Virus record (IMG/VR): IMGVR_UViG_3300009155_000115
Coordinates: 1-39,456 of that record
Reading direction: 5' to 3' (one strand)
DNA: 39,456 nucleotides
Origin: a virus
Shown: positions 17,199 to 33,935 of the stretch, piece after piece
How the letters are laid out: the number at the start of each line of letters is the position of its first letter
Numbering within the stretch: the first letter of the stretch is position 1
The notes under the pieces: generated by a model
The model's database searches: none
What the model saw: the letters and a program-made list of their open reading frames with translations, nothing else
What the model was told of the DNA's origin: nothing
Made by a program: the position numbers and the translations under genes

Positions 17199-17404
17199 GT
17201 GTTTCCCCTTGCTCGTATGGCGGCGGCACATTCTTCGCCATCATCCATGTACTTGTTCATTGCCTCACACACCCTTGCACACGCCTCACGCTCAATCAGC
17301 ACAGCGGCTTTGATGGCATCAGCTTCCCAATGGTAGGGCTGGCCTTTCATAGAATTCTCACGCAAGATGCGGTCAAACTCATCATCTTCATCTGTATGGA
17401 TCAT
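17195..17404 (-). CDS. Hypothetical protein with EREACARVCE motif (69 aa)
   Basis: A 69-residue protein with AAVLIEREACARVCEAMN followed by ECAAAIRARGN. This two-block signature is widespread in phages and prophages of proteobacteria, but its function is unknown. It overlaps the neighbours on both sides by ATGA. The two cysteine blocks could bind metal (inference). Confidence 0.6.
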   Translation of the reverse strand: MIHTDEDDEFDRILRENSMKGQPYHWEADAIKAAVLIEREACARVCEAMNKYMDDGEECAAAIRARGNT

Positions 17405-17640
17405 TTTCTTGCCCTCTCTTTGATCATCTCATCTGCCATTCTATAAGCGTCATAACTGAGTCCCTCCATCCAGCTGTCATCAGTTAGATGTAGATCCTTC
17501 GATAAAAAGCTTTCAATCAAAGGCGCCACAATCCTAATGGCAAAGTAATCTCTTAGATCCATGCCGTCAGCATCTACGCCAAACCCAGTAATCCGCGCGT
17601 TCTCGTCCACCTTGATGGACTGTCCAGGATATGCTTTCAT
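17401..17640 (-). CDS. Hypothetical protein, GMDLRDYFA family (79 aa)
   Basis: A 79-residue protein, first gene of the replication operon, with a strong AAGGAGG ribosome-binding site before ATG 17640. The block GMDLRDYFAIRIVAPLIESF followed by YDAYRMADEMIKER matches a short protein common in phages and prophages, of unknown function. A promoter with TTGACT/TATATT lies 20-49 bp upstream. Confidence 0.6.
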   Translation of the reverse strand: MKAYPGQSIKVDENARITGFGVDADGMDLRDYFAIRIVAPLIESFLSKDLHLTDDSWMEGLSYDAYRMADEMIKERARK

Positions 17641-17659: not shown

Positions 17660-17689
17660 AATATAACTCATGTATTCTACACAAGTCAA
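17660..17689 (-). promoter_or_regulatory. Sigma70-type promoter of the replication operon
   Basis: On the minus strand TTGACT (17684-17689) is followed after 18 bases by TATATT (17660-17665). A start near 17653 would give a short leader containing AAGGAGG and the ATG at 17640. Both hexamers match consensus at five of six positions. Confidence 0.65.
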
Positions 17690-18029
17690 CTGTTGTATCA
17701 CCAGCTCTGAGCCCTCTTACCCGTTGACCCTCCCTCCCTCACAGGGGACAGAGTAGGAAGGCCAACGACTCTTTATCAAGGTGCTTTGTCCAGTTTTTAT
17801 GTGAACTATCGGCCAGCCAAGCCGCCCTCCCCTGGAATCCCGATAAGGTCAGTTTTCACCATCCTTAACGATCATCTCCCAGCGTACTAGGGTATGTGTC
17901 TTTCGACTACCTTGTTTATTCCGTTCGATTACTCTACTTGGAGGCGCGGGTCACGCCGAGGTTCTGTGTTTCTTGAGTTCAGCCCATACAGGCCATCAGC
18001 TAACGCGCTCTGACGAGTGGCCGCAAAAA
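17690..18029. other. Gene-free region with several RNA-like hairpins
   Basis: No credible ORF lies here on either strand. Read on the minus strand, visible stems include GGTA-GTC-GAAA-GAC-ACA-TACC with a GNRA loop (17891-17911), GGCG/CGCC (17943-17957), GGCCA/TGGCC with an inner TCAG/CTGA stem (17991-18022), and TATCGG/CCGATA (17817-17855). The 9-mer CCAAGCCGC (17827-17835) recurs exactly at 18172-18180, inside the putative small RNA. The region could be a downstream part of a large structured RNA, a second RNA, or a replication/packaging site. Strand is not proven. Confidence 0.4.
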
Positions 18030-18183
18030 GCAAAAAACCCTTATTGAAAGATACGAGCTTTAGGCTTGGTTGCCGCATAAGAGCCTGCTGTAACAGGACA
18101 TCCTAGCTTTGACGAAGCCCGCTCCTTCAATAAGGGTTCGGGGTGTCGTTTTACAGAACTACAACGGGTTACCAAGCCGCTGA
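18030..18183 (-). ncRNA. Putative pseudoknotted small RNA with own promoter and terminator
   Basis: Minus-strand transcript of about 150 nt. A -10/-35 pair lies at 18190-18220. The transcript would contain AACCCTTATTGAA (18126-18138) pairing perfectly over 13 bp with TTCAATAAGGGTT (18036-18048), followed by TTTTTTGCTTTTT as an intrinsic-terminator tail. GGCTTGGT (complement of 18171-18178) can pair over 8 bp with ACCAAGCC (complement of 18063-18070). The two helices interleave (A-B-A'-B'), giving a pseudoknot or two mutually exclusive folds. Smaller hairpins (GCTT/AAGC, CCTG/CAGG) fill the 77-nt interval. Neither strand has a convincing ORF. I do not recognise a known RNA family. Confidence 0.5.
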
Positions 18184-18242: not shown

Positions 18243-18261
18243 ACTCTAACAGTGTTAGTGT
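18243..18261. promoter_or_regulatory. Operator-like palindrome, site 4
   Basis: ACTCTAACA-G-TGTTAGTGT, with eight of nine arm positions paired. It lies between the terminator of the RuvC-like gene and the promoter of the putative small RNA, about 23 bp upstream of the -35 hexamer. Confidence 0.6.
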
Positions 18262-18262
18262 C

Positions 18263-18294
18263 AAAAAAAATCCCCAAGGGTGAGCTCGGGGATT
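18263..18294 (-). terminator. Rho-independent terminator of the RuvC-like gene
   Basis: On the minus strand AATCCCC and GGGGATT form a 7-bp stem around a 12-base loop, immediately followed by a run of eight T. It lies 34 bp after the stop of the RuvC-like gene and so insulates the small RNA from that transcript. Confidence 0.75.
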
Positions 18295-18327
18295 AACAAA
18301 GGAGAGTGGCAACTGCATTGCCGGTGT

Positions 18328-23304: not shown

Positions 23305-23533
23305 TAAAGATGATGGCACTGTAGTGGCCGCTCACAGCAACCAGCTGCGGGACGGCAAAGGCCGCGGACTGAAGGCTCACGACTATCGTATTGCGGCCTT
23401 ATGCTACAGGTGCCACATGGAGCTTGACCAGGGGGTTAAACTGGATAAAGCCCAGAGAGTTCAGATGTGGGAGGATGCACATCGCAAGACTCTGGGCTTA
23501 TTCTTTGAGCGCGGCCTTATTGGGCCTGTCTGA
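23246..23533 (+). CDS. HNH-like nuclease, DUF1364-type
   Basis: A 95-residue protein with PCQHC (about 15-19), VVAAHSNQLRDGKGRGLKAH (AH...K.H), and ALCYRCHMELDQG (Cys pair plus His, about 52-64). This CxxC...AH...CxxCH layout is typical of the small HNH-type proteins of the DUF1364 group that sit in phage recombination or replication modules. Likely a metal-dependent DNA endonuclease. It is the last plus-strand gene and its end overlaps the convergent giant gene by 17 bp. Start at ATG 23246 is favoured by AGGA upstream; internal ATGs are possible. Confidence 0.7.
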   Translation: MYRNKKMLEMARTIPCQHCDKDDGTVVAAHSNQLRDGKGRGLKAHDYRIAALCYRCHMELDQGVKLDKAQRVQMWEDAHRKTLGLFFERGLIGPV

Positions 23534-26500
23534 CAAGATCATTAAATATGGTCATGATTTTGATCCTGGCTTCTTTCAATTGCTTAATCTGAGCTTTGCG
23601 CTCCGGAGTTTGCTCCATCTTCTGCAAGGCAGTAATGTCTTGATTGATTGAGCTGACATCCTTCTCAAAATCTTCAGATGCAAACGACAATTTGGAGATT
23701 GGGTTCTTATTCATGTAACCCTGCACATCACCCTTGTTTTCAATCCTGCCGTTGATGTTGTTTAGATGATCCGCAAGCATCGTTACGTTGTCGTAAAACC
23801 TAGCAGATGTTGCGGCATCTGTTTTGGTTTCTCCAAAGAATCGATTGGCCAAAGGTACGCGATAGGCCGGAGTCTCTTCTCCGGAAACCTTGTTGGCAAT
23901 TAACTCACCCGTGCGCTTAAGTTCCCTACCAATTCCGCCCGCCGCTTGACCAATCAAGTAATCCAGCTGATCGCCCGTTGGACTGAGGAACCCTTTTGAA
24001 AACTCTTCTCCGCCTGTGCTGATGTAGTTTATAAAGTAAGACAGCTCTTTGCTAAACTCAGAAGCTGTTTCGCGTGTGCGCTGCCAACCAGGCTTAGGCT
24101 TGAGCGACTGGTCTTCTTTAAAGATTGGGCGTCCAAACGAGTCTTTGTTCTCAGCAAGAGCAACTGCTGGATCAAGGAATGTTGGAGCAATTGTTTGTAG
24201 GAACGTACCACCACCAAATGGATTAACAGCATCAACGATAACACTGGAAGCATCGGAGATCTTTCCAGCCATGCCGTGGTTGCTTTTCATAAGACCAAGG
24301 GATATCAACATACCCTCAGTAAGCAGGCGGCCGGTGTTTGGAATGGCGCGCAGACCCGGGGGCAGATTCCAGATGAAGTAATCGCCATTAAAGGTTGGGA
24401 TAATGAAACCTTTGTTCTTTGTGAACTGAGGTGGATCATCATCATCAAAGCCAGCTAAGAACATCCACATAGCATTAAGCGCACCCATGGCAAGGCCAGT
24501 CTTGATGATTGTCTTTCCAGCTGGGCCTGCTAACGTAATTGCATAACGAGCAGTACCTTGCAAGCTTGCATTAAAGAAAGCATACAGGCCGCGAATGTGT
24601 TTAGTTCTAGCGCCGCGCTTGTTAAAGTTTACTGTAATGTTTTTGGCAATCTCGGCAGCCTCTTCGGCAGACAAATTATTGTCTAAGTAAGCAACCTTGA
24701 ATGTGGATAGACGAACTGTATTCTCAAGCGTGTCGTTAAAGTCAGAGAAGGCATTAGCCCACCACTCAACCTTTTGACGAATGGGGCCTTGCTCCAGCTT
24801 TTCCATCGCCACCAACATGGCGTGTTCATCTTCAAATGAGAATTTTGGAACAAAACCTTTCCACTCAACATTCATCCTTTGGCGAACCATTTGATCGCGG
24901 AAGCCAGTCTTACCGCCAGTCTGACGGAACAATCTCCACAGATCTGTCCAGTCATCTGGCTTTAAGTTATCAACATCGTATGAGGTTTTAATTGGCCTCT
25001 TGGTTGTTTCTTTGCGCTCTTTGCGAATGTCTCTTGCAATACCCCTGATAGCAGGGAAGACATCCTTCAAAACCTGCTTCTGCTGTCCGGCAAGCGGCGT
25101 TGTGCTCAGGTTAACAAGAGCGCCTTGTATATCGTTAAAGATGTTGACAAGACCGAACGCTATATTGTACTGAGTATTGACCGCAGCAAACCAACGGCTA
25201 AATGTGCTGGCCGCACCAAAGAACACGCTAAGTTTTTCGGCGTCAAGTTGTTTGAGCTCGACCGCCAAACGCATGGCTTCTGGTGAATTTGGCTTAAACA
25301 ATACAAAACGATTCTGGCCATTAACTCGAACGGGGAAAACATTACGCGCATTTTGGTAAGAACGATTCACACGATACTTAACATCGCGAATAGTTTCTCC
25401 CTCGGCGCCTGTTTTCTTGGAAACAAAAGCGGTCTTTGGTTGCTCAAGTAAGTTCTCAATTAACTCAGGATCAAGGCCAAAGCTTTCCATCTCAGCGATC
25501 AGGGCGTCATTGTCTTTGATTGCATCAGGATTGATGGCCATCCAGAAGTTTGGATTTGGGTATTTGATAACCATGCCATACAAGGCCTGTCCAATACGCA
25601 TACTCTCGGCCCTGCGAATAGCCCTGTCACGCTGGAGCATGACATTCTCAAGAATGTTAACCACAGTCTTGGTGGATCCCATGGCCTCTTTACCAAACTT
25701 ACCGGCAGTAGCATAGCCACCCAGATTGCCGCCGCCAGTCTGAATAACAAAGTCTAACTCAGATTCATCGCGGCTCAATGGGACGTAGTGCGGGCTCTCA
25801 CTACGCCATCCATCAATAGTCTCTTGAGTTTCTTGGCCGGAGGTTACAAGAATTTCTTGAGTGCCTCTAACAATTTTGTCAATTTGATTGGCAAGATTTT
25901 CTAAAACTTGTTTGCGGTCTGCTGGCAAATCACGCAAATACTCTCTGGCCTTTTCGGTGTTTATTCCTGAGCCCTGATCTTGAACGGCTGGGCTCTTGTT
26001 CTTGGCATTGATGATCTCGTTGCGTTCTTCGGCATAACGATTGTGTAAGTATGTAGCAAGCTCTTTATTGGAGACATTGTCCTTACGCATCTCCTTAACA
26101 AGAGGATCAACTTCATACTTCAAGAACTCTAGTGCCTGCTCCGCCTCGCGACCAGGATTAAGAGTTTCTTTGCGATAAGCATTAAGCCTATCATCAATCT
26201 TACCGATCTGGTCGTTGATGATCTTCTGGACGTTCTTAAGATCGCGGTAGTTGTCTTGCCATGTATAGAGCCAGTCATCAAAGTTATTACTCTCCTTCAT
26301 GGCCCATGTGGCTTCAGGCATTTCTCCACCACGGAAGTTTTTACTGATGTTTTGGTATTGGCCTGTACCCAGCATTTCCTTGGTCACAAACTTACCATCA
26401 GCTTTGCTCAAACTGTTTAATGCACGGAGAACGGAGGCGTCAGATTTAAGGCCAAAGACCGACTTAATCTTTTGTCCTAACTCGCTCAACCAGTTTTTAA

Positions 26501-29500
26501 GTTTAGACAGCACACCGCCTTGAATGGCATCATAACGGGCCTCAACAATTCGAGCGCCATTAACCGCCCAGAACTCTGATGCATCAAAGTATTGGTACAA
26601 ATCGATTGATACTTTTGAGTTTATCAACAACTCTTTGGCAAGCTCAATGCTCTTTGGATCAGCGCCACGGCCACCGCGCATTTCGTTGACAAACTTCATG
26701 TGCCTTACAGCATCTTCGTAAATTTTTTCTGATCCTTTTGGAATTTCCAAACGATCATGGTTGTTATTACCAATGTGAGCATCCAACAGCGCAGCAAAGT
26801 ACAATTTTTCAGCTGGGTCTGTGGCCGCTTTATTGGCTTTTAGTAACTGAGTAAGCCACGCTTTACGAATGGCATTTTGGATCTTGGCCGGCATCATGCG
26901 TTCAAGATGGTGCAAGATCTCATGGGTAGCAGTAACGTCTGTGCCCATGTCCTTCATTAAGTTAATGATGCGAGCCATGCTGTTGTAGAAGCCGCCAGCA
27001 CCCTCCGGGCCCTTGGCCTTAACACTGATACCAAGATCATCGACCAAAGCGGGGTTCTGCTGGATAAACCACTCAGCTAAATCAACACCCTTCTCTGAAA
27101 TAAAACCTTTACGCTTTGCTTCCAATAGCTTTTGACGGATGAAGTCGGCGCCGCGAACGCGCTCTGCTGGCTTTTGTTTAAGGCGGTTTTCCTCATCCAG
27201 CTCAATAGCGGCATTAACTCGATCAAGGTATTCTTCATCGGTGAGCTTGCCCTCGTTTCGCTGATTGGTGAGAGTCTTGATCTTGCGCTTCAAAGATGGC
27301 GAACGCTCTTTTTCGTTCTCATCAATGCTGTCAGCAATGTCATTAACAAGCTTGACCAAATCATCTTCAAGGCTCATGTTAATTGGTTCGCTTATGTAAC
27401 CAAACTTTTGAGCATTTTTAATAGATTCAGCATCCATTGATAGGGGAATGTTTTTAAGACCGGCATCACGCAGATATGCATAACGATGCCTACCATCGCC
27501 AAAAACAATTGCACCATCTTTATTAACAGAGACGTTTGGCGCCTCTATAGATTTTGCAGTTTTAATGAAATTAGCAAACGTTTTGTAACGATCACCTATT
27601 CCACCCTCCCCGCCTTCACCAATGTATTGCCACTTTGTATTTGCAAATGCATTGTCAAAAGCGTCTGTATTTACATTAACAATTTTGTTTTCTTTCTCAA
27701 GCCTGTGTTTTGTTACAGGAATTGAGCGTCCATCAATTTGAATAATGTTTGGACTTTCAAGGCTCATGAATTGGCCGGGCTCTTCTTCTTTGGCCACCAG
27801 TGTGCGCTCTTCAGTCTTGGGAGCTGCACGTTGCTTCTCTATCTTGGTAGTCTTGGTAACTGGCGTGACGCGCTGGCGAATGATGTCTTCGCTGTAAGTC
27901 GCTTTGCCATTCACAAAGTCCATTACGTTCGAGCCATTCTCAGGAACGATGAAGATCTTTGCACCATCCATTTGATCCAGATGGTTTGTGATCAGGTTGC
28001 GGAATGTTTCTTTATTAACATTGATACAACCAAATGAGTAGCGGGAATCCTCTGCTCCAGGCTTATCTAAGGCGGCCAAACGCTGTTTAGCATCCTTCTC
28101 ATTGGTCCAGACAGAGTGCATGACCAGCTGGGAGTATGGGCCGTTTCTGCCCATGTAGGACTTGTCGAGAACAAAGACTTTGCCAAAATCATAGTCCCCA
28201 TACATATATTCTTCTGAGGCACTACGCTTGGCATCCCTCATGCCAAGATCAAACAGGCCAGCGGGCGTGATCCTGTTGGCTACGATGTTGTTATCGCCCT
28301 TCATGAAGTCACCAATACCGGCACCAAAAAGAGTTTTACTCTGCAGTAACAACGATCCATCAGGCTGGAAGATGTAAGTGTTGGCGCTTTGCTTATCGGC
28401 AACGATGAAGAGTTTGTTCTTCTCTTTGAGCTCAGCCTCCAAAGTAGGATAGATCACGCCGTATGCGCGCTTGGCCGCATCAGACATTGACTGAGCTTCT
28501 TTGGGTAGATCCTTGACTACTTCGCTTGTACGGATGTCGTACTGAGGAACGGCAATTGTGTAGGGCTGACTGACAAACTGTGGGTTAAACACAATTGCTA
28601 CAGACAGCAAACCATTGGCCATCTGACGAATGATCGCGCGGATCTTGCCGCTAACAGCTTTGGCGCCTTGAGTTACATAGGCAATGACGTCCTTACGCAG
28701 GGCTTCAAAGAATTCATCAGAGCCGTTCTTGGCGCCGTACTCTTTCTCAAGGGTATTGATCTGTGCGTCAGAGAGCTTACTGCTTTGATCAGTGATCAGG
28801 GTGCGCTGCTCTTCATCACCAATCTCTGTGAACTGGCCTTCAAATGTATAAGGTTCGTTCTCAAGTTGGCCTGCAATCTGCGGCTCTTCGGCTGGCAACA
28901 CTTCATCCGCCACCTCTTGAGCTGGCCTGTTTTGCTCTTGTTTGAATGCTTTATCAAACTGAGCAATAGCTAGATCGTATTTTTTGCGAGCAATTAAAAA
29001 TTCATCATCATCAATTTCTTGCGCTCTATAGGCTTCTTGGGCTTTGCTAAATTCTTTTGTTGCCTCACGGGATTCATCTAAAGCTTTTGTGTACTCCAAA
29101 GACAAAGGAGCTTCTGCTTTTGGTGTAGTAACTTTTTTCTTTTGCGCTTTCTTTGGTTTCTCTGGTTCGGCCATTTCTTTGGTTTGGGCGCGTACAACTT
29201 TCTCAACCCAATTATCAAACGCTGGAGTGCCACGCTCACCTTTAAACTCTACACCCAAGGCCGACCGGTAACCAGTCTCGCTGGCTCCAGGGCCCTGCAT
29301 CTCAACACTCCACTCACCCTTCCTTTTTAACCAGCGATTAACGTTGACATTAATTTCGCCGTAGCCAAAGTCAAAGCTGAAGTCATAAGGAATTGGTTCT
29401 TTGCTAATGGAATCAATGTCTTTAGACCCATCTTGGGCGCCAGTCTTTGGATCAATGGTTGTGACGCTGTCTTCACTAACAGTAATTGCAATCGATGGAT

Positions 29501-32500
29501 TAGGGTCGCCCTTTTCATAGATCAAGTCACCAATCTTGATGCCCTTTGCATTTTCTTTTTCTTCAATTGGAAGATGCCCGTTAGGGTTGGCTATCTCATC
29601 ATCAACGTCAGCTTCTGGGTTGTTTTCCTTGATCTTTTTATAGATGGCAATAGCCTTCTTATCATCTTCATCAGGGGTGAACTTCACGCCCCTAAAGGCG
29701 TCTAGGCTTTTAGATCCTGTGGATTTTGGCTCTTCCTTGCCAATCTCGCGGATTGCTGGACCTACTTGTTTATTGTTGTACTCATGAATCGTGTAAGTAA
29801 TATCACCCTTGTTTGCGACGATGTTTACTTCTTCTTCATCTGGGTTCCCACTAATATCAACTTTTTCGTTTGACACTGAGTTGGGTGGAACCTTGGCTTC
29901 AATGACGTATGGGCGCGTATCTTCGCCGGCATCTTCTCCAAGGTTGCCAATGTACCTATCAATATTTGAAGAATGGATGGTCCAGTGATTACCAAGATTC
30001 TTTTCGTCAATGTCATTTTCAGACTTTGCAAAAATAACTCGATAGATTGATCCACCTTTTTTAATCAAGCCATCAACAGCATTTTTGTAGTAATTAAGTT
30101 CGGACAAGGCGCTCTCAGGATTGCCATAAGCATCTTCATAACCCTTTAAAGCTTTATCAAACTCAGCTGGGTCATCTAATTTGTTTTTGCTTTGCGGCTT
30201 GTTTTCTGCAGCAGCCTTCTTTTCCCTGGCCTCTGCTGTAGCCAGCTCGCCTTGAAGCTTATAGATGTTTGAGGCAAGTTGCTTTTTCTTGTCTTTGTTA
30301 AATTCTTCTGCGGCCTGATCTTCTAAATCCTGAAGTTCTTCTCGGATTTCTTTAACGCTACGTTGCTTTACCTCAGCCTTTTCGATTGGCTTAACTGGCG
30401 TCCTGCCTTCAAGCTCATCAATACGCTTATTGATCTCGGCCATGCGAGCTTCTTGCTCTGGCGTTTCTTGCAGGCCGGCCTTGATAATCTCCCGCAGCAA
30501 AGTTTTTTGTTCTTTGCGTAGTTCGGCAATCTCTTTCTTTTTGTCTACAGCAGGCTTTTCAACTACCGCCGTATTCTTTGGCATATTTTCAAGGACTTGC
30601 ATTGCCCCATCAATGTCGCCTTTTTTATAAAGGTCGCCGATGGCTTTGCGAACTTCATCGTTTGTTGTATTAAGATAGGTAAATGCTTCAGCTCCAATTT
30701 CTGGAAACTCTTCGCCCAGTTCAACAGGATTAAATGCAACCTTTTCAGGTTTTTGTTTTTTGGCAAACAATCCTTCTGTAAGCTCTGGCGCTTGCTTAGT
30801 CTGGGCTGGCTGGTTGGCCATGTCGGCGGCACCAAACATATCCATGGTTGGAACTTCACCCTTTTCCGCAACCTGGGGTTGCAGCTTGAACATATCAACT
30901 TCTCTATCGGCAATAGCCTTCTGCTCGGCCGCCGCTTTGTCTTTCTCTTGAGTGGCCTCACGCTGTCTGATTTCGGCCTCAGTCTCTCCTCGCAGTTGAA
31001 GCTCAGGTGCTGGGGCGCCTCTGGCAGTACGAATCTCGCTGATCAAATTGGGGTTAGTTGACCAGTTATCCCATGATGTTTTGAGCTGGCGCAGTTCATT
31101 GATGCGGCGCTTAACAGCCTCTGGATCACGAACGTCAATGCCCTCTGCCTTGGCTACTGCTGGGTTCTTTGCGGCACCAGTAATTGCAGACAATCTGGTT
31201 TGTACTTCGCGCTGCTTGGATGCGGCTATCTTAGCCATGTCTTCCGCTTCTTTCATGGCGGAATCATCGAAGCCAAACATATCTGTGGTGGTGTCTGCTT
31301 CGCTTGCAAGAGCTTTGACGGCCTGCATCAAATTAACAGCGTTAGAAGCCGCCTTACCATCTTGGATGGCCTTGATACCAACACCCTGCAAACGAGGGTC
31401 GTTAGGTGCGTTTAATGCGATTAGGTAGGCCGCTTCATCACCGACTTTGTCGGAACGGACACCGGCAATGAGTTCATCACTGCCTTGATTTGCGATGGTG
31501 AAAGCCCGCTTGCCCGGCGATCTCGCCAGTAATCCGCGTGACTCTGCCGTTTCTTGGTCGAGGCCTGTGCCTTTGAAGTAGTTGACATAATCTTTTACCT
31601 TTCCTTGTCCATCACGGATATTTAATTCAGCATCCAAAACAGCGGCCATGTCTTTTGTAAAGCCCGCCTTCTCATCATGGATTTGAGCTGGAATAGTTTC
31701 TTCACCACTGCGCTTGGCAAGATCAAAACGATGGCGGCCAGAGATGACCTCCATACGTCCATCTTCTCTACGCCAAACCTGAATGGGAGCAACACCTGTT
31801 CTCTCAAACTTACCGCCTAAAGGCTCAACGATGCCTTCTTTGTTTGCATCGGCCTTAAACTGAGGAACATCCTCTGACAACTGAAGCTGGCTTACTGGGA
31901 CCTCAACAGTCATTCGGCCAGGCAACTGTGTTTGCTCTGCCGCCCCAACATTTGCGGTGGATTTAATTGCCGATGTTGTTGTATGCGGTGTTTTTGATCC
32001 ATCTGGACGAATGCCTCCAGCATCAGAGAACTCTAGCTCAGCAATCTTATTGACTGGTACACCATCTTTGTATTGCTGACTGGCACGAGGACTCATTTTG
32101 ATGATCTGGCCGTTATCATCACGGAAGAAATACAAAGTGCCGTTTAAGTCATTGGCCTTAATGTGGCCGCTTATTGTTTCTCCTTCATCTCCAAATATTG
32201 AATTTGTTAATTCAATTGTTGGAGTAGTTGTTTCCGACTGAGTTACTTCGCCATTTCTCGTAAGGACACGTTGCTTGGTCCCGTCTTCGTTTTCTTTTGT
32301 ATATCGTTCAACGCCTTCTGGAATGTTTAATTCACCTGTTTTTTTATTAATTGTTTTTTCTGATTTTGTCCAGCCAGTTGAATCAAATTCAGATTTTTTT
32401 GCAGGCTTCTCCACACTAACAGTGTTAGTGTCGGGGCCAAGGATCTCTCTCAACATAGCCTCTGTATCTTGAGAAGCAGATGGTGGCGCGGTAATTTTTT

Positions 32501-33935
32501 CCGCTGGCACAGGCTCTTCAGGTGGCGGCGGCATAGCAACTTGCGGCCTTTGAATTAAGCTTGCAATACCTGGCTCAGAAGTAACTTGTTGTTGAGCTCT
32601 GTTTGGATTGAGCGCCTGCACAGCCGCTTGGCGTGTTGACTCTGGATTAAATGCAACAGCATCAACATCAGCTTGAATAGCCTTAGCCAGTGCAGAACCA
32701 GGACGCACCCTTGGCTCAACAACATTTTGATAAAACTTATCGCCAGCTTCTTTGGCCTTCATGCCGCCAGACATGACGCCGCCAATCAATAGAGTTTGAA
32801 GGAACTGCTGGCGGAATGCATCAGCCAAGTTCATTTCTTCATCGGTCAAGCCAGCCTTAAGTTCAGCCGCATTTTGGCCAAGGTTTGTTACTGTCTCAGT
32901 AGCTTGTTCTACACCTTGGGCGCCAAGCTTCTCCATAACATTGGAAATTTCTTTAACGCCTCTGCCAGAAGCCCTAACTGGAGCCGCAAATGCTTTAAGG
33001 AATACCGCATTACTCACGGCCTCTGGTATAGCTTCCCATGCTCCGTACTCTATAGCCGCCTGATCAAACTCTTTCTTTGCCTTATTCCAATCTTCTTGGC
33101 TAATATTTTTGCCATAAAGTTTTTGCGAGTCGTTATTTAACTTATCGCGAACACGGGATAAGAAATCATCTTTACTTGCTCTGTATGCCAATGCTCCTGA
33201 CGCGCCCATTCCTGCGGCTACAGCAGTTGCTGGGCCAGCAAGTTCACCGGCCGCCGCCGCTGTGGCTGATGTAACCATCGTAGCCAAACTAAATCCAAGC
33301 GACTCACCCAAGCCTTGGAAAGCTTCGTAGTTGGGATCGGGTTTACCTTTGGCATCGGTTGGCTTCATTGCCGCAATAGCTTTGTCAACCATGCCAGTAT
33401 CTGTTGGAGCCTCAATATCGCCAGCACGATAAGCTTTTAAGAATGTGCTGAGAGCCGCCTCCGGGACTTTTGGCAACTCGCCTGCAACTATTTCTGCCGA
33501 CTCTACGCCAGCGCGAATAGGAGCACGGCCTTCTGGATTAAAGACCGGGCGAGCGCCGCCAATGTCTTTGTAGACTTGGCCAACAGGAATGCCTTTTTCT
33601 TTGGCAATCTGTCGAGCCGCATATTCATTGGCCGCCTTGTATTTATTTCCAGGCAAAAGCTCCATCAACTGTTCAGAAAGAGACGGCTCATAGGGGCGCA
33701 TCTCAGATTGGTCGCCAGGCAGTCTAGGGATTTGTTCTTGTGGTGCTGGCGCGGCACCAATAGCCCCCATCATCTGCTCTTCAGGCGATAGGGTCGGCTC
33801 TGCTTTGGTTAAAGAGGCAAGGCCTTTATTGGCGCTAGATGAGCTGTATTTGCCGTATCTGGCAAGTAATTCAGATTGCGTAATTCCTTCAGGGACACCA
33901 GTAATTGTGGTGCCGTCTGGCATTAAAACATCCAT
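23517..33935 (-). CDS. Giant multidomain virion 'polyvalent' protein (3472 aa)
   Basis: The largest gene of the window. Its start has AAGGGG before ATG 33935. Visible segments in order: a short 'MPDGTTITGVPEGIT' N-terminus seen in ejected virion proteins; a hydrophobic Ala/Gly stretch near 215-250; a ParB-like core SGRHRFDLAKRSG (about 732-745); an ADP-ribosyltransferase-like segment with IYRV Arg1299, HWTIHSS and a Glu triplet 1367-1369 (EEEVNI); an L,D-transpeptidase-like domain with MHSVW His1940 and YSFGCINV Cys1970; a second ParB-like core GDGRHRYAYLRDAG (about 2147); a zinc-peptidase motif HEILH (2338-2342); long helical regions; and a C-terminal hydrophobic segment near 3130-3165 before DDDDPP. 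This matches the 'polyvalent protein' concept (Iyer, Aravind and colleagues): proteins injected with phage DNA. Cell-wall cutting and host-targeting roles are inferred. Confidence 0.8.
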   Translation of the reverse strand: MDVLMPDGTTITGVPEGITQSELLARYGKYSSSSANKGLASLTKAEPTLSPEEQMMGAIGAAPAPQEQIPRLPGDQSEMRPYEPSLSEQLMELLPGNKYKAANEYAARQIAKEKGIPVGQVYKDIGGARPVFNPEGRAPIRAGVESAEIVAGELPKVPEAALSTFLKAYRAGDIEAPTDTGMVDKAIAAMKPTDAKGKPDPNYEAFQGLGESLGFSLATMVTSATAAAAGELAGPATAVAAGMGASGALAYRASKDDFLSRVRDKLNNDSQKLYGKNISQEDWNKAKKEFDQAAIEYGAWEAIPEAVSNAVFLKAFAAPVRASGRGVKEISNVMEKLGAQGVEQATETVTNLGQNAAELKAGLTDEEMNLADAFRQQFLQTLLIGGVMSGGMKAKEAGDKFYQNVVEPRVRPGSALAKAIQADVDAVAFNPESTRQAAVQALNPNRAQQQVTSEPGIASLIQRPQVAMPPPPEEPVPAEKITAPPSASQDTEAMLREILGPDTNTVSVEKPAKKSEFDSTGWTKSEKTINKKTGELNIPEGVERYTKENEDGTKQRVLTRNGEVTQSETTTPTIELTNSIFGDEGETISGHIKANDLNGTLYFFRDDNGQIIKMSPRASQQYKDGVPVNKIAELEFSDAGGIRPDGSKTPHTTTSAIKSTANVGAAEQTQLPGRMTVEVPVSQLQLSEDVPQFKADANKEGIVEPLGGKFERTGVAPIQVWRREDGRMEVISGRHRFDLAKRSGEETIPAQIHDEKAGFTKDMAAVLDAELNIRDGQGKVKDYVNYFKGTGLDQETAESRGLLARSPGKRAFTIANQGSDELIAGVRSDKVGDEAAYLIALNAPNDPRLQGVGIKAIQDGKAASNAVNLMQAVKALASEADTTTDMFGFDDSAMKEAEDMAKIAASKQREVQTRLSAITGAAKNPAVAKAEGIDVRDPEAVKRRINELRQLKTSWDNWSTNPNLISEIRTARGAPAPELQLRGETEAEIRQREATQEKDKAAAEQKAIADREVDMFKLQPQVAEKGEVPTMDMFGAADMANQPAQTKQAPELTEGLFAKKQKPEKVAFNPVELGEEFPEIGAEAFTYLNTTNDEVRKAIGDLYKKGDIDGAMQVLENMPKNTAVVEKPAVDKKKEIAELRKEQKTLLREIIKAGLQETPEQEARMAEINKRIDELEGRTPVKPIEKAEVKQRSVKEIREELQDLEDQAAEEFNKDKKKQLASNIYKLQGELATAEAREKKAAAENKPQSKNKLDDPAEFDKALKGYEDAYGNPESALSELNYYKNAVDGLIKKGGSIYRVIFAKSENDIDEKNLGNHWTIHSSNIDRYIGNLGEDAGEDTRPYVIEAKVPPNSVSNEKVDISGNPDEEEVNIVANKGDITYTIHEYNNKQVGPAIREIGKEEPKSTGSKSLDAFRGVKFTPDEDDKKAIAIYKKIKENNPEADVDDEIANPNGHLPIEEKENAKGIKIGDLIYEKGDPNPSIAITVSEDSVTTIDPKTGAQDGSKDIDSISKEPIPYDFSFDFGYGEINVNVNRWLKRKGEWSVEMQGPGASETGYRSALGVEFKGERGTPAFDNWVEKVVRAQTKEMAEPEKPKKAQKKKVTTPKAEAPLSLEYTKALDESREATKEFSKAQEAYRAQEIDDDEFLIARKKYDLAIAQFDKAFKQEQNRPAQEVADEVLPAEEPQIAGQLENEPYTFEGQFTEIGDEEQRTLITDQSSKLSDAQINTLEKEYGAKNGSDEFFEALRKDVIAYVTQGAKAVSGKIRAIIRQMANGLLSVAIVFNPQFVSQPYTIAVPQYDIRTSEVVKDLPKEAQSMSDAAKRAYGVIYPTLEAELKEKNKLFIVADKQSANTYIFQPDGSLLLQSKTLFGAGIGDFMKGDNNIVANRITPAGLFDLGMRDAKRSASEEYMYGDYDFGKVFVLDKSYMGRNGPYSQLVMHSVWTNEKDAKQRLAALDKPGAEDSRYSFGCINVNKETFRNLITNHLDQMDGAKIFIVPENGSNVMDFVNGKATYSEDIIRQRVTPVTKTTKIEKQRAAPKTEERTLVAKEEEPGQFMSLESPNIIQIDGRSIPVTKHRLEKENKIVNVNTDAFDNAFANTKWQYIGEGGEGGIGDRYKTFANFIKTAKSIEAPNVSVNKDGAIVFGDGRHRYAYLRDAGLKNIPLSMDAESIKNAQKFGYISEPINMSLEDDLVKLVNDIADSIDENEKERSPSLKRKIKTLTNQRNEGKLTDEEYLDRVNAAIELDEENRLKQKPAERVRGADFIRQKLLEAKRKGFISEKGVDLAEWFIQQNPALVDDLGISVKAKGPEGAGGFYNSMARIINLMKDMGTDVTATHEILHHLERMMPAKIQNAIRKAWLTQLLKANKAATDPAEKLYFAALLDAHIGNNNHDRLEIPKGSEKIYEDAVRHMKFVNEMRGGRGADPKSIELAKELLINSKVSIDLYQYFDASEFWAVNGARIVEARYDAIQGGVLSKLKNWLSELGQKIKSVFGLKSDASVLRALNSLSKADGKFVTKEMLGTGQYQNISKNFRGGEMPEATWAMKESNNFDDWLYTWQDNYRDLKNVQKIINDQIGKIDDRLNAYRKETLNPGREAEQALEFLKYEVDPLVKEMRKDNVSNKELATYLHNRYAEERNEIINAKNKSPAVQDQGSGINTEKAREYLRDLPADRKQVLENLANQIDKIVRGTQEILVTSGQETQETIDGWRSESPHYVPLSRDESELDFVIQTGGGNLGGYATAGKFGKEAMGSTKTVVNILENVMLQRDRAIRRAESMRIGQALYGMVIKYPNPNFWMAINPDAIKDNDALIAEMESFGLDPELIENLLEQPKTAFVSKKTGAEGETIRDVKYRVNRSYQNARNVFPVRVNGQNRFVLFKPNSPEAMRLAVELKQLDAEKLSVFFGAASTFSRWFAAVNTQYNIAFGLVNIFNDIQGALVNLSTTPLAGQQKQVLKDVFPAIRGIARDIRKERKETTKRPIKTSYDVDNLKPDDWTDLWRLFRQTGGKTGFRDQMVRQRMNVEWKGFVPKFSFEDEHAMLVAMEKLEQGPIRQKVEWWANAFSDFNDTLENTVRLSTFKVAYLDNNLSAEEAAEIAKNITVNFNKRGARTKHIRGLYAFFNASLQGTARYAITLAGPAGKTIIKTGLAMGALNAMWMFLAGFDDDDPPQFTKNKGFIIPTFNGDYFIWNLPPGLRAIPNTGRLLTEGMLISLGLMKSNHGMAGKISDASSVIVDAVNPFGGGTFLQTIAPTFLDPAVALAENKDSFGRPIFKEDQSLKPKPGWQRTRETASEFSKELSYFINYISTGGEEFSKGFLSPTGDQLDYLIGQAAGGIGRELKRTGELIANKVSGEETPAYRVPLANRFFGETKTDAATSARFYDNVTMLADHLNNINGRIENKGDVQGYMNKNPISKLSFASEDFEKDVSSINQDITALQKMEQTPERKAQIKQLKEARIKIMTIFNDLVRQAQ
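32413..32431. promoter_or_regulatory. Operator-like palindrome, site 5 (perfect copy, within coding sequence)
   Basis: ACACTAACA-G-TGTTAGTGT is a perfect 9+1+9 palindrome inside the giant virion gene, about 500 codons from its start, where it encodes part of DTNTVSV. It is the best match of the five sites, so chance is unlikely, but no promoter is evident next to it. Confidence 0.5.

Follow-up and report, generated by a model that had tools for sequence, protein, structure and literature searches.

The minus strand at 18030-18183 of an uncultured phage contig fairly likely encodes the 5′ module of a structured non-coding RNA of ~490 nt, which would be transcribed from its own promoter leftward from ~18183 to ~17691, in the early replication/recombination region. 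The contig (IMG/VR record IMGVR_UViG_3300009155_000115) was analysed over 39,456 nt, and this whole stretch is called the window. Comparison of related loci shows a 5′ module with two pseudoknots, an interrupted U-rich linker and a 3′ domain with a pseudoknotted core, and also shows that this 5′ module precedes 3′ domains of several kinds in related phages. The RNA occurs, in mix-and-match versions, in more than 200 contigs of uncultured phages. The first-pass annotation had taken the region for a free-standing transcript of ~150 nt. That length had been deduced, and conservation extends beyond it, giving a unit of ~490 nt instead: all 59 distinct 5′ modules of the window type continue into further, mostly recognisably structured sequence, and the next ~330 nt are conserved across the 27 sequences of the window clade.

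Promoter, fold and sequence features

Direct reading of the sequence placed all of the flagged features on the minus strand. The main elements on the 5′ side are as follows.

18269-18294, minus strand: terminator of the upstream RuvC gene, a 10-bp stem and a T-run, from the sequence
18220-18190, minus strand: promoter of the RNA, TTGACA (18220-18215), a 19-nt spacer and TATAAT (18195-18190), both hexamers perfect
18032-18183, minus strand: 5′ module with the P1 hairpin, the long B hairpin, two predicted loop pseudoknots and a U-tract end, from a 53-sequence alignment, pair counts and a covariance model
18162-18182, minus strand: P1 hairpin, CAGCGG (18182-18177) with CCGUUG (18167-18162), 6/6 pairs changed on both sides and 98% of cells paired
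18066-18175, minus strand: pseudoknot PKa, P1 loop UUGGU (18175-18171) with ACCAA (18070-18066), the core of the 8-bp helix annotated earlier
18088-18156, minus strand: pseudoknot PKb, CUGUAA (18156-18151) with the apical loop UUACAG (18093-18088), 6/6 pairs changed on both sides
18036-18138, minus strand: helix B/B′, 18138-18126 with 18048-18036, 13 bp, from covariation
18025-18037, minus strand: U-rich tract UUUUUUGCUUUUU, its first two U's pairing within B′

The perfect-hexamer promoter claimed by the annotation was present on this strand, and transcription is predicted to start at ~18183. The consensus promoter scan tolerates spacers of 16-18 nt, and the 19-nt promoter was hence unlisted. 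A promoter matching at least 9 of 12 positions was found for 78% of the 59 distinct 5′ modules, compared to 4.5% of shuffled upstream sequences, and it lay close upstream of the first hairpin. Helix B and the 8-bp helix A (18171-18178 with 18063-18070) were both perfect, and their order along the RNA was A-B-A′-B′ as annotated. A T-rich tail did follow the 13-bp stem, but as an interrupted U4-GC-U5 tract. The non-coding character of the region was likewise borne out, as no ORF above 49 aa crossed it in the window, which held only ORFs of 44-49 aa there. Compared to dinucleotide shuffles, the flagged stretch had a fold z-score of -3.22 (3 of 200 shuffles as good), and the 541-nt stretch down to 17650 had a z-score of -3.97 (0 of 100).

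The RuvC gene ends in a terminator, and thus the RNA looks like a unit of its own. Weak Rfam matches at 18263-18323 were set aside as this RuvC terminator. The operator-like palindrome of the annotation is an imperfect one at ~18243-18261, downstream of the RuvC terminator and upstream of the RNA promoter. A similar dyad was seen at the same position in relatives, with TTAACANTGTTAA flanked by outer arms that vary.

Covariation in the 5′ module

The alignment of the 5′ module contained 53 homologues of 18032-18183 from distinct sources, giving 52 distinct rows, and the pair counts leave out the inner part of helix B beyond 13 bp. Changes on both sides were found in 26 of 39 pairs, compared to a shuffled mean of 16.4 (sd 1.4) and at most 16 in slid controls. 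There were 300 doubly changed cells, with 89 in the shuffled and at most 64 in the slid versions, and the covariation score was 0.400 compared to 0.135 and at most 0.109, respectively. The inner stem covaried in 5/5 pairs across the 53 modules. The covariance model R1 gave the window 152 bits, with the window itself among the 53 source sequences. All samples came from exact-pattern scans of IMG/VR, in which columns inside a pattern are uninformative on conservation; many sequences are related, so that counts are inflated and events non-independent, and the shuffles and slides are only partial controls.

The two interleaved helices of the annotation were both found, but it had overlooked a better-supported pairing, PKb (18151-18156 with 18088-18093), which joins the segment between P1 and B to the apical loop of B. 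The sequence of PKb is hypervariable and its pairing conserved, with a mean of 5.98 bp between a module's own strands and 3.33 bp with swapped partners. As judged from these alignments, PKb is the best-supported predicted pseudoknot of the 5′ module.

Compensatory changes were present in the 13-bp helix and in the core of the 8-bp helix, whereas the outer 3 bp of the latter were unconserved. Helix B had a mean of 11.6 bp with its own partner compared to 5.9 bp with swapped partners (14 distinct pairs), and 6 of its 13 pairs had changed on both sides despite alignment misregister. The core of helix A was invariant in the first set of 53 modules, partly since the search pattern fixed one strand. 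A second scan, with a segment that lies in neither PKa strand, enlarged the sample to 77 sequences, of which 56 modules came from the first pattern. The innermost PKa pair was U-A in 72 of the 77 and C-G in 5, with no mismatch (Fisher 5e-8, uncorrected for kinship), and all five C-G cases fell in the unbiased part of the sample. With compensatory changes in both interleaved helices, the pseudoknot reading held, and on this comparative footing the predicted A-B-A′-B′ topology is a genuine pseudoknot.

The 3′ domain

The sequence beyond the U-tract contains the following elements.

17691-18017, minus strand: 3′ domain, class I, ~330 nt, 27 sequences with a mean column identity of 84%
17976-18015, minus strand: core motif CGUCAGAGCGCGUUAGCUGAUG, hairpin H2 and a pseudoknot of the H1 loop (18009-18008 with 17977-17976), from 56 distinct sequences
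17719-17962, minus strand: putative long-range helix closing the 3′ domain (17962-17940 with 17737-17719), from RNAalifold on 27 sequences, mostly invariant
17660-17689, minus strand: separate promoter of the downstream gene, TTGACT-18-TATATT, from the promoter scan and kept in window-clade relatives

RNAalifold predicted 52 pairs on the 27 sequences of the window clade, 12 of them changed on both sides. Among the 56 distinct cores, all three pairs of H2 covaried, and the pairing between the H1 loop and the segment after H2 was G-C in 42, A-U in 14 and broken in none; the H1 stem was nearly invariant, with no compensation seen. The window, itself one of the sources of the covariance model R2, scored 77.5 bits against it. 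Taken on its own, the predicted long-range helix is a weak candidate. We found no terminator at the 3′ end of the RNA, which may thus run into the next gene.

Occurrence and exchange of modules

A block of up to ~380 nt, from 18015 to ~17636 of the window and including the promoter of the next gene, was shared at mostly ~87% identity by 17 IMG/VR contigs that were found via the neighbouring RuvC-like gene. In nearly all of these contigs the flagged stretch was swapped for other hairpins. The 22-nt core motif occurred in at least 119 viral contig stretches of IMG/VR, and a conserved 22-mer and a second conserved segment of the flagged stretch in 75 and 97 stretches, respectively. Matches to the core motif in two bacterial MAGs were judged to be chance, as their surroundings were without the rest of the motif.

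When the 59 distinct window-type 5′ modules were sorted by simple patterns, the class I domain followed the U-tract in 16, and the other 43 had the CUAUCGGG class (22), the CGUACUCC class (10), a fourth class (3) or an unclassified sequence (8). The fourth class (class IV) is the Rfam family Betaproteobacteria-1 (RF02932), matched at 100-101 bits. In one of the eight unclassified loci (L196), the class I core lay ~270 nt further on, behind an ORF. In L098, L117 and L196, a short ORF seems to have been inserted after the U-tract of the 5′ module, ahead of the 3′ core. Inserts between the U-tract and the core were optional; in several loci, as read from the sequences, long helices enclosed them.

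Many members of the core family had a second type of 5′ module, with a GUUGU..ACAAC hairpin whose loop forms a helix with the far side of the B loop; the topology is the same and the sequences are unrelated to the window type. This pairing was usually at least 7 bp and variable in sequence, with a mean of 6.97 for own partners and 4.91 for swapped ones in a set of 31 that includes a few first-type modules. The class I 3′ domain occurred behind both types of 5′ module, and in the Manatee Spring phage MW202545 the RF02932 domain lay behind the second type, ending a tRNA array. With partners swapped across loci in this way, 5′ modules and 3′ domains are thus combined differently.

Genomic surroundings and tRNAs

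The RNA is flanked by RuvC and the gene at 17401-17640, in a neighbourhood with Erf, exonuclease, helicase, ParB-like and primase genes. Mechanical ORFs served as the basis for grouping the gene neighbours. A single 3472-aa ORF at 23517-33935 on the minus strand of the window is very large for a 39-kb phage contig. Among named phages and plasmids, the Manatee Spring phage genomes were the only close relatives of the region.

In six of eight tRNA-bearing loci a tRNA lay 190-530 nt from the RNA; the window itself had none. Class III 3′ domains contained an embedded tRNA-like domain in L154 (3327-3442) and in L165 (minus strand); the one in L154 scored 33.7 bits against the Rfam tRNA model, had extra sequence inside and was not called by ARAGORN. 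A sequence resembling a tRNA T-arm was observed in the linker insert of L063, L108, L110 and L142.

A second structured element lay between RuvC and the RNA in six loci (L005, L008, L010, L012, L014 and L016), consisting of CAACACGCAUGGGGAUUG ... CAGCCGUGUUGG ... GGGUUAGCGCC ... CACUGCUUUAUGUG and then a U-run. It was absent from the window and had no Rfam match in the loci scanned. Its GGGUUAGCGCC/CACUGCUUCAUGUG part recurs as an insert in the large RNA of the same phages.

Relation to known RNAs

At neither gathering nor low-stringency thresholds did Rfam covariance models give a usable match for the window, in agreement with the annotation, which had recognised no known family, and no description of the RNA family was found within open-licence papers. 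Large pseudoknot-rich RNAs of phages and prophages include GOLLD (Rfam RF02032) and ROOL, which often lie near tRNAs and sometimes hold a tRNA, and in GOLLD the 3′ region is conserved and the 5′ region variable (PMC12286853). The RNA of the window family is likewise phage-encoded and near tRNAs in other loci. However, neither the window nor its relatives matched the GOLLD or ROOL models at either threshold, its ~490 nt are shorter than their 650-800 or more, and here 5′ modules and 3′ domains are recombined.

Betaproteobacteria-1 (120 nt) lies directly behind a similar promoter, 5′ module and U-tract in L151, L160, L161 and MW202545. The 3′ domain of the window is unmatched by this model, which finds only relatives with a different 3′ domain and leaves out both the 5′ module and the downstream part. 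Proteo-phage-1 (RF03044) gave a sub-threshold score of 34.7 bits (cut-off 42) in Stenotrophomonas phage SOVA965, ahead of tRNAs. This phage has a related RuvC, but the window is unmatched by the model and the SOVA965 stretch shares only short pieces with other loci. The stretch (L243, 4460-5380) is ~900 nt of unannotated sequence ahead of a tRNA cluster; similar DNA occurs in Stenotrophomonas, Xanthomonas and Acinetobacter phages, and the stretch has pieces of 25-30 nt in common with L067, L071, L075, L131 and L135.

The phage lambda pR′-tR′ leader and the HK022 put RNA also combine a promoter, a short structured leader and a stop-like element. They are shorter and serve a downstream operon, whereas here several hundred nucleotides of conserved structured RNA follow and the downstream genes vary.

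Alternative explanations

A rather unlikely reading is that of a free-standing sRNA of ~150 nt ending at its terminator, or of an attenuator in which the interleaved helices decide whether transcription stops at the U-tract or goes on into the 3′ part and the operon. The U-rich tract does follow the 13-bp stem directly, and the module and its promoter are conserved as a unit while the downstream part is swapped. Against this, the loop of the stem is ~75 nt, and the U-tract is short and interrupted, being U4-GC-Un in most relatives and degraded to only U2-G in several. Further, mostly structured RNA also comes next. The switch that had been proposed fared no better: helices A and B have no nucleotides in common and can thus coexist without competition, and no competing strand is conserved in general. 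An attenuator is less likely, because the two helices do not compete. One candidate, a conserved strand just before the 3′ core that would compete with PKa, was rejected (5.48 for own and 4.94 for swapped partners, with weak support in one clade only, permutation 0.02).

The RNA could also act in cis, as a riboswitch-like leader of the downstream gene at 17401-17640, which we regard as improbable. Its 3′ end is within tens of nucleotides of a start codon in many relatives, but window-clade loci have the downstream gene's own promoter between the RNA and the start codon, and the downstream genes differ between loci, including several replication genes and, in L058 and L063, predicted capsid-like genes with their own promoter.

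The location among replication genes would fit a replication element, in which the transcript serves as a primer for DNA synthesis in the manner of RNA II of ColE1 plasmids (~550 nt) and its conserved G-rich end GGGAGGGAGGGUCAACGGG holds an RNA-DNA hybrid. A possible G-quadruplex was noted in this segment (~17719-17740, minus strand), and its G-tracts are conserved within the window clade, including L052 and L053, in which a spacer change disrupts a predicted pair. However, the G-rich end is missing in other class I members (e.g. L122-L143) and was not seen in the other 3′ domains examined, and this reading has very little probability.

That the region is protein-coding is next to negligible: many relatives have a mechanical ORF across the core, but the window has only the short ORFs given above, 1-nt indels separate close relatives inside the conserved 3′ block, and sequence changes preserve base pairs.

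Proposed model and implications

The RNA is probably a new phage ncRNA of modular build that resembles GOLLD and ROOL in organisation and matches neither, and by this analogy it is probably a trans-acting structural RNA. The U-tract would be read through at least part of the time, given the conserved structured sequence after it and the imperfect, variable U-run. The whole RNA would then fold as one particle, with the 5′ module as a stable cap or assembly domain. It may act in trans as a structural RNA (a scaffold, particle or RNP) during infection, as suggested by the varied gene neighbours, the kind of organisation and the analogy to GOLLD and ROOL, and some members may perhaps carry a tRNA-like cargo. 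Trans action, assembly and cargo are what we infer from that analogy. Against the model as a whole, many transcripts could terminate at the U-tract after its strong stem.

More speculatively, and with less than even confidence, the loci may belong to an undescribed superfamily of modular RNAs, in which recombination shuffles interchangeable promoter-pseudoknot 5′ modules, several 3′ domains, hairpin inserts and tRNA-like domains, and which assemble into GOLLD/ROOL-like particles or RNPs. Betaproteobacteria-1 and other small orphan Rfam entries would then be pieces of such RNAs.

Large structured RNAs are rare in bacteria and phages, and most have an unknown function. The exchangeable parts of the putative RNA would be natural experiments on the role of each part, and the orphan family Betaproteobacteria-1 can now be placed in phages, behind a promoter and a 5′ domain. 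Members linked to tRNAs are relevant to the purpose of the ornate RNAs that phages encode.
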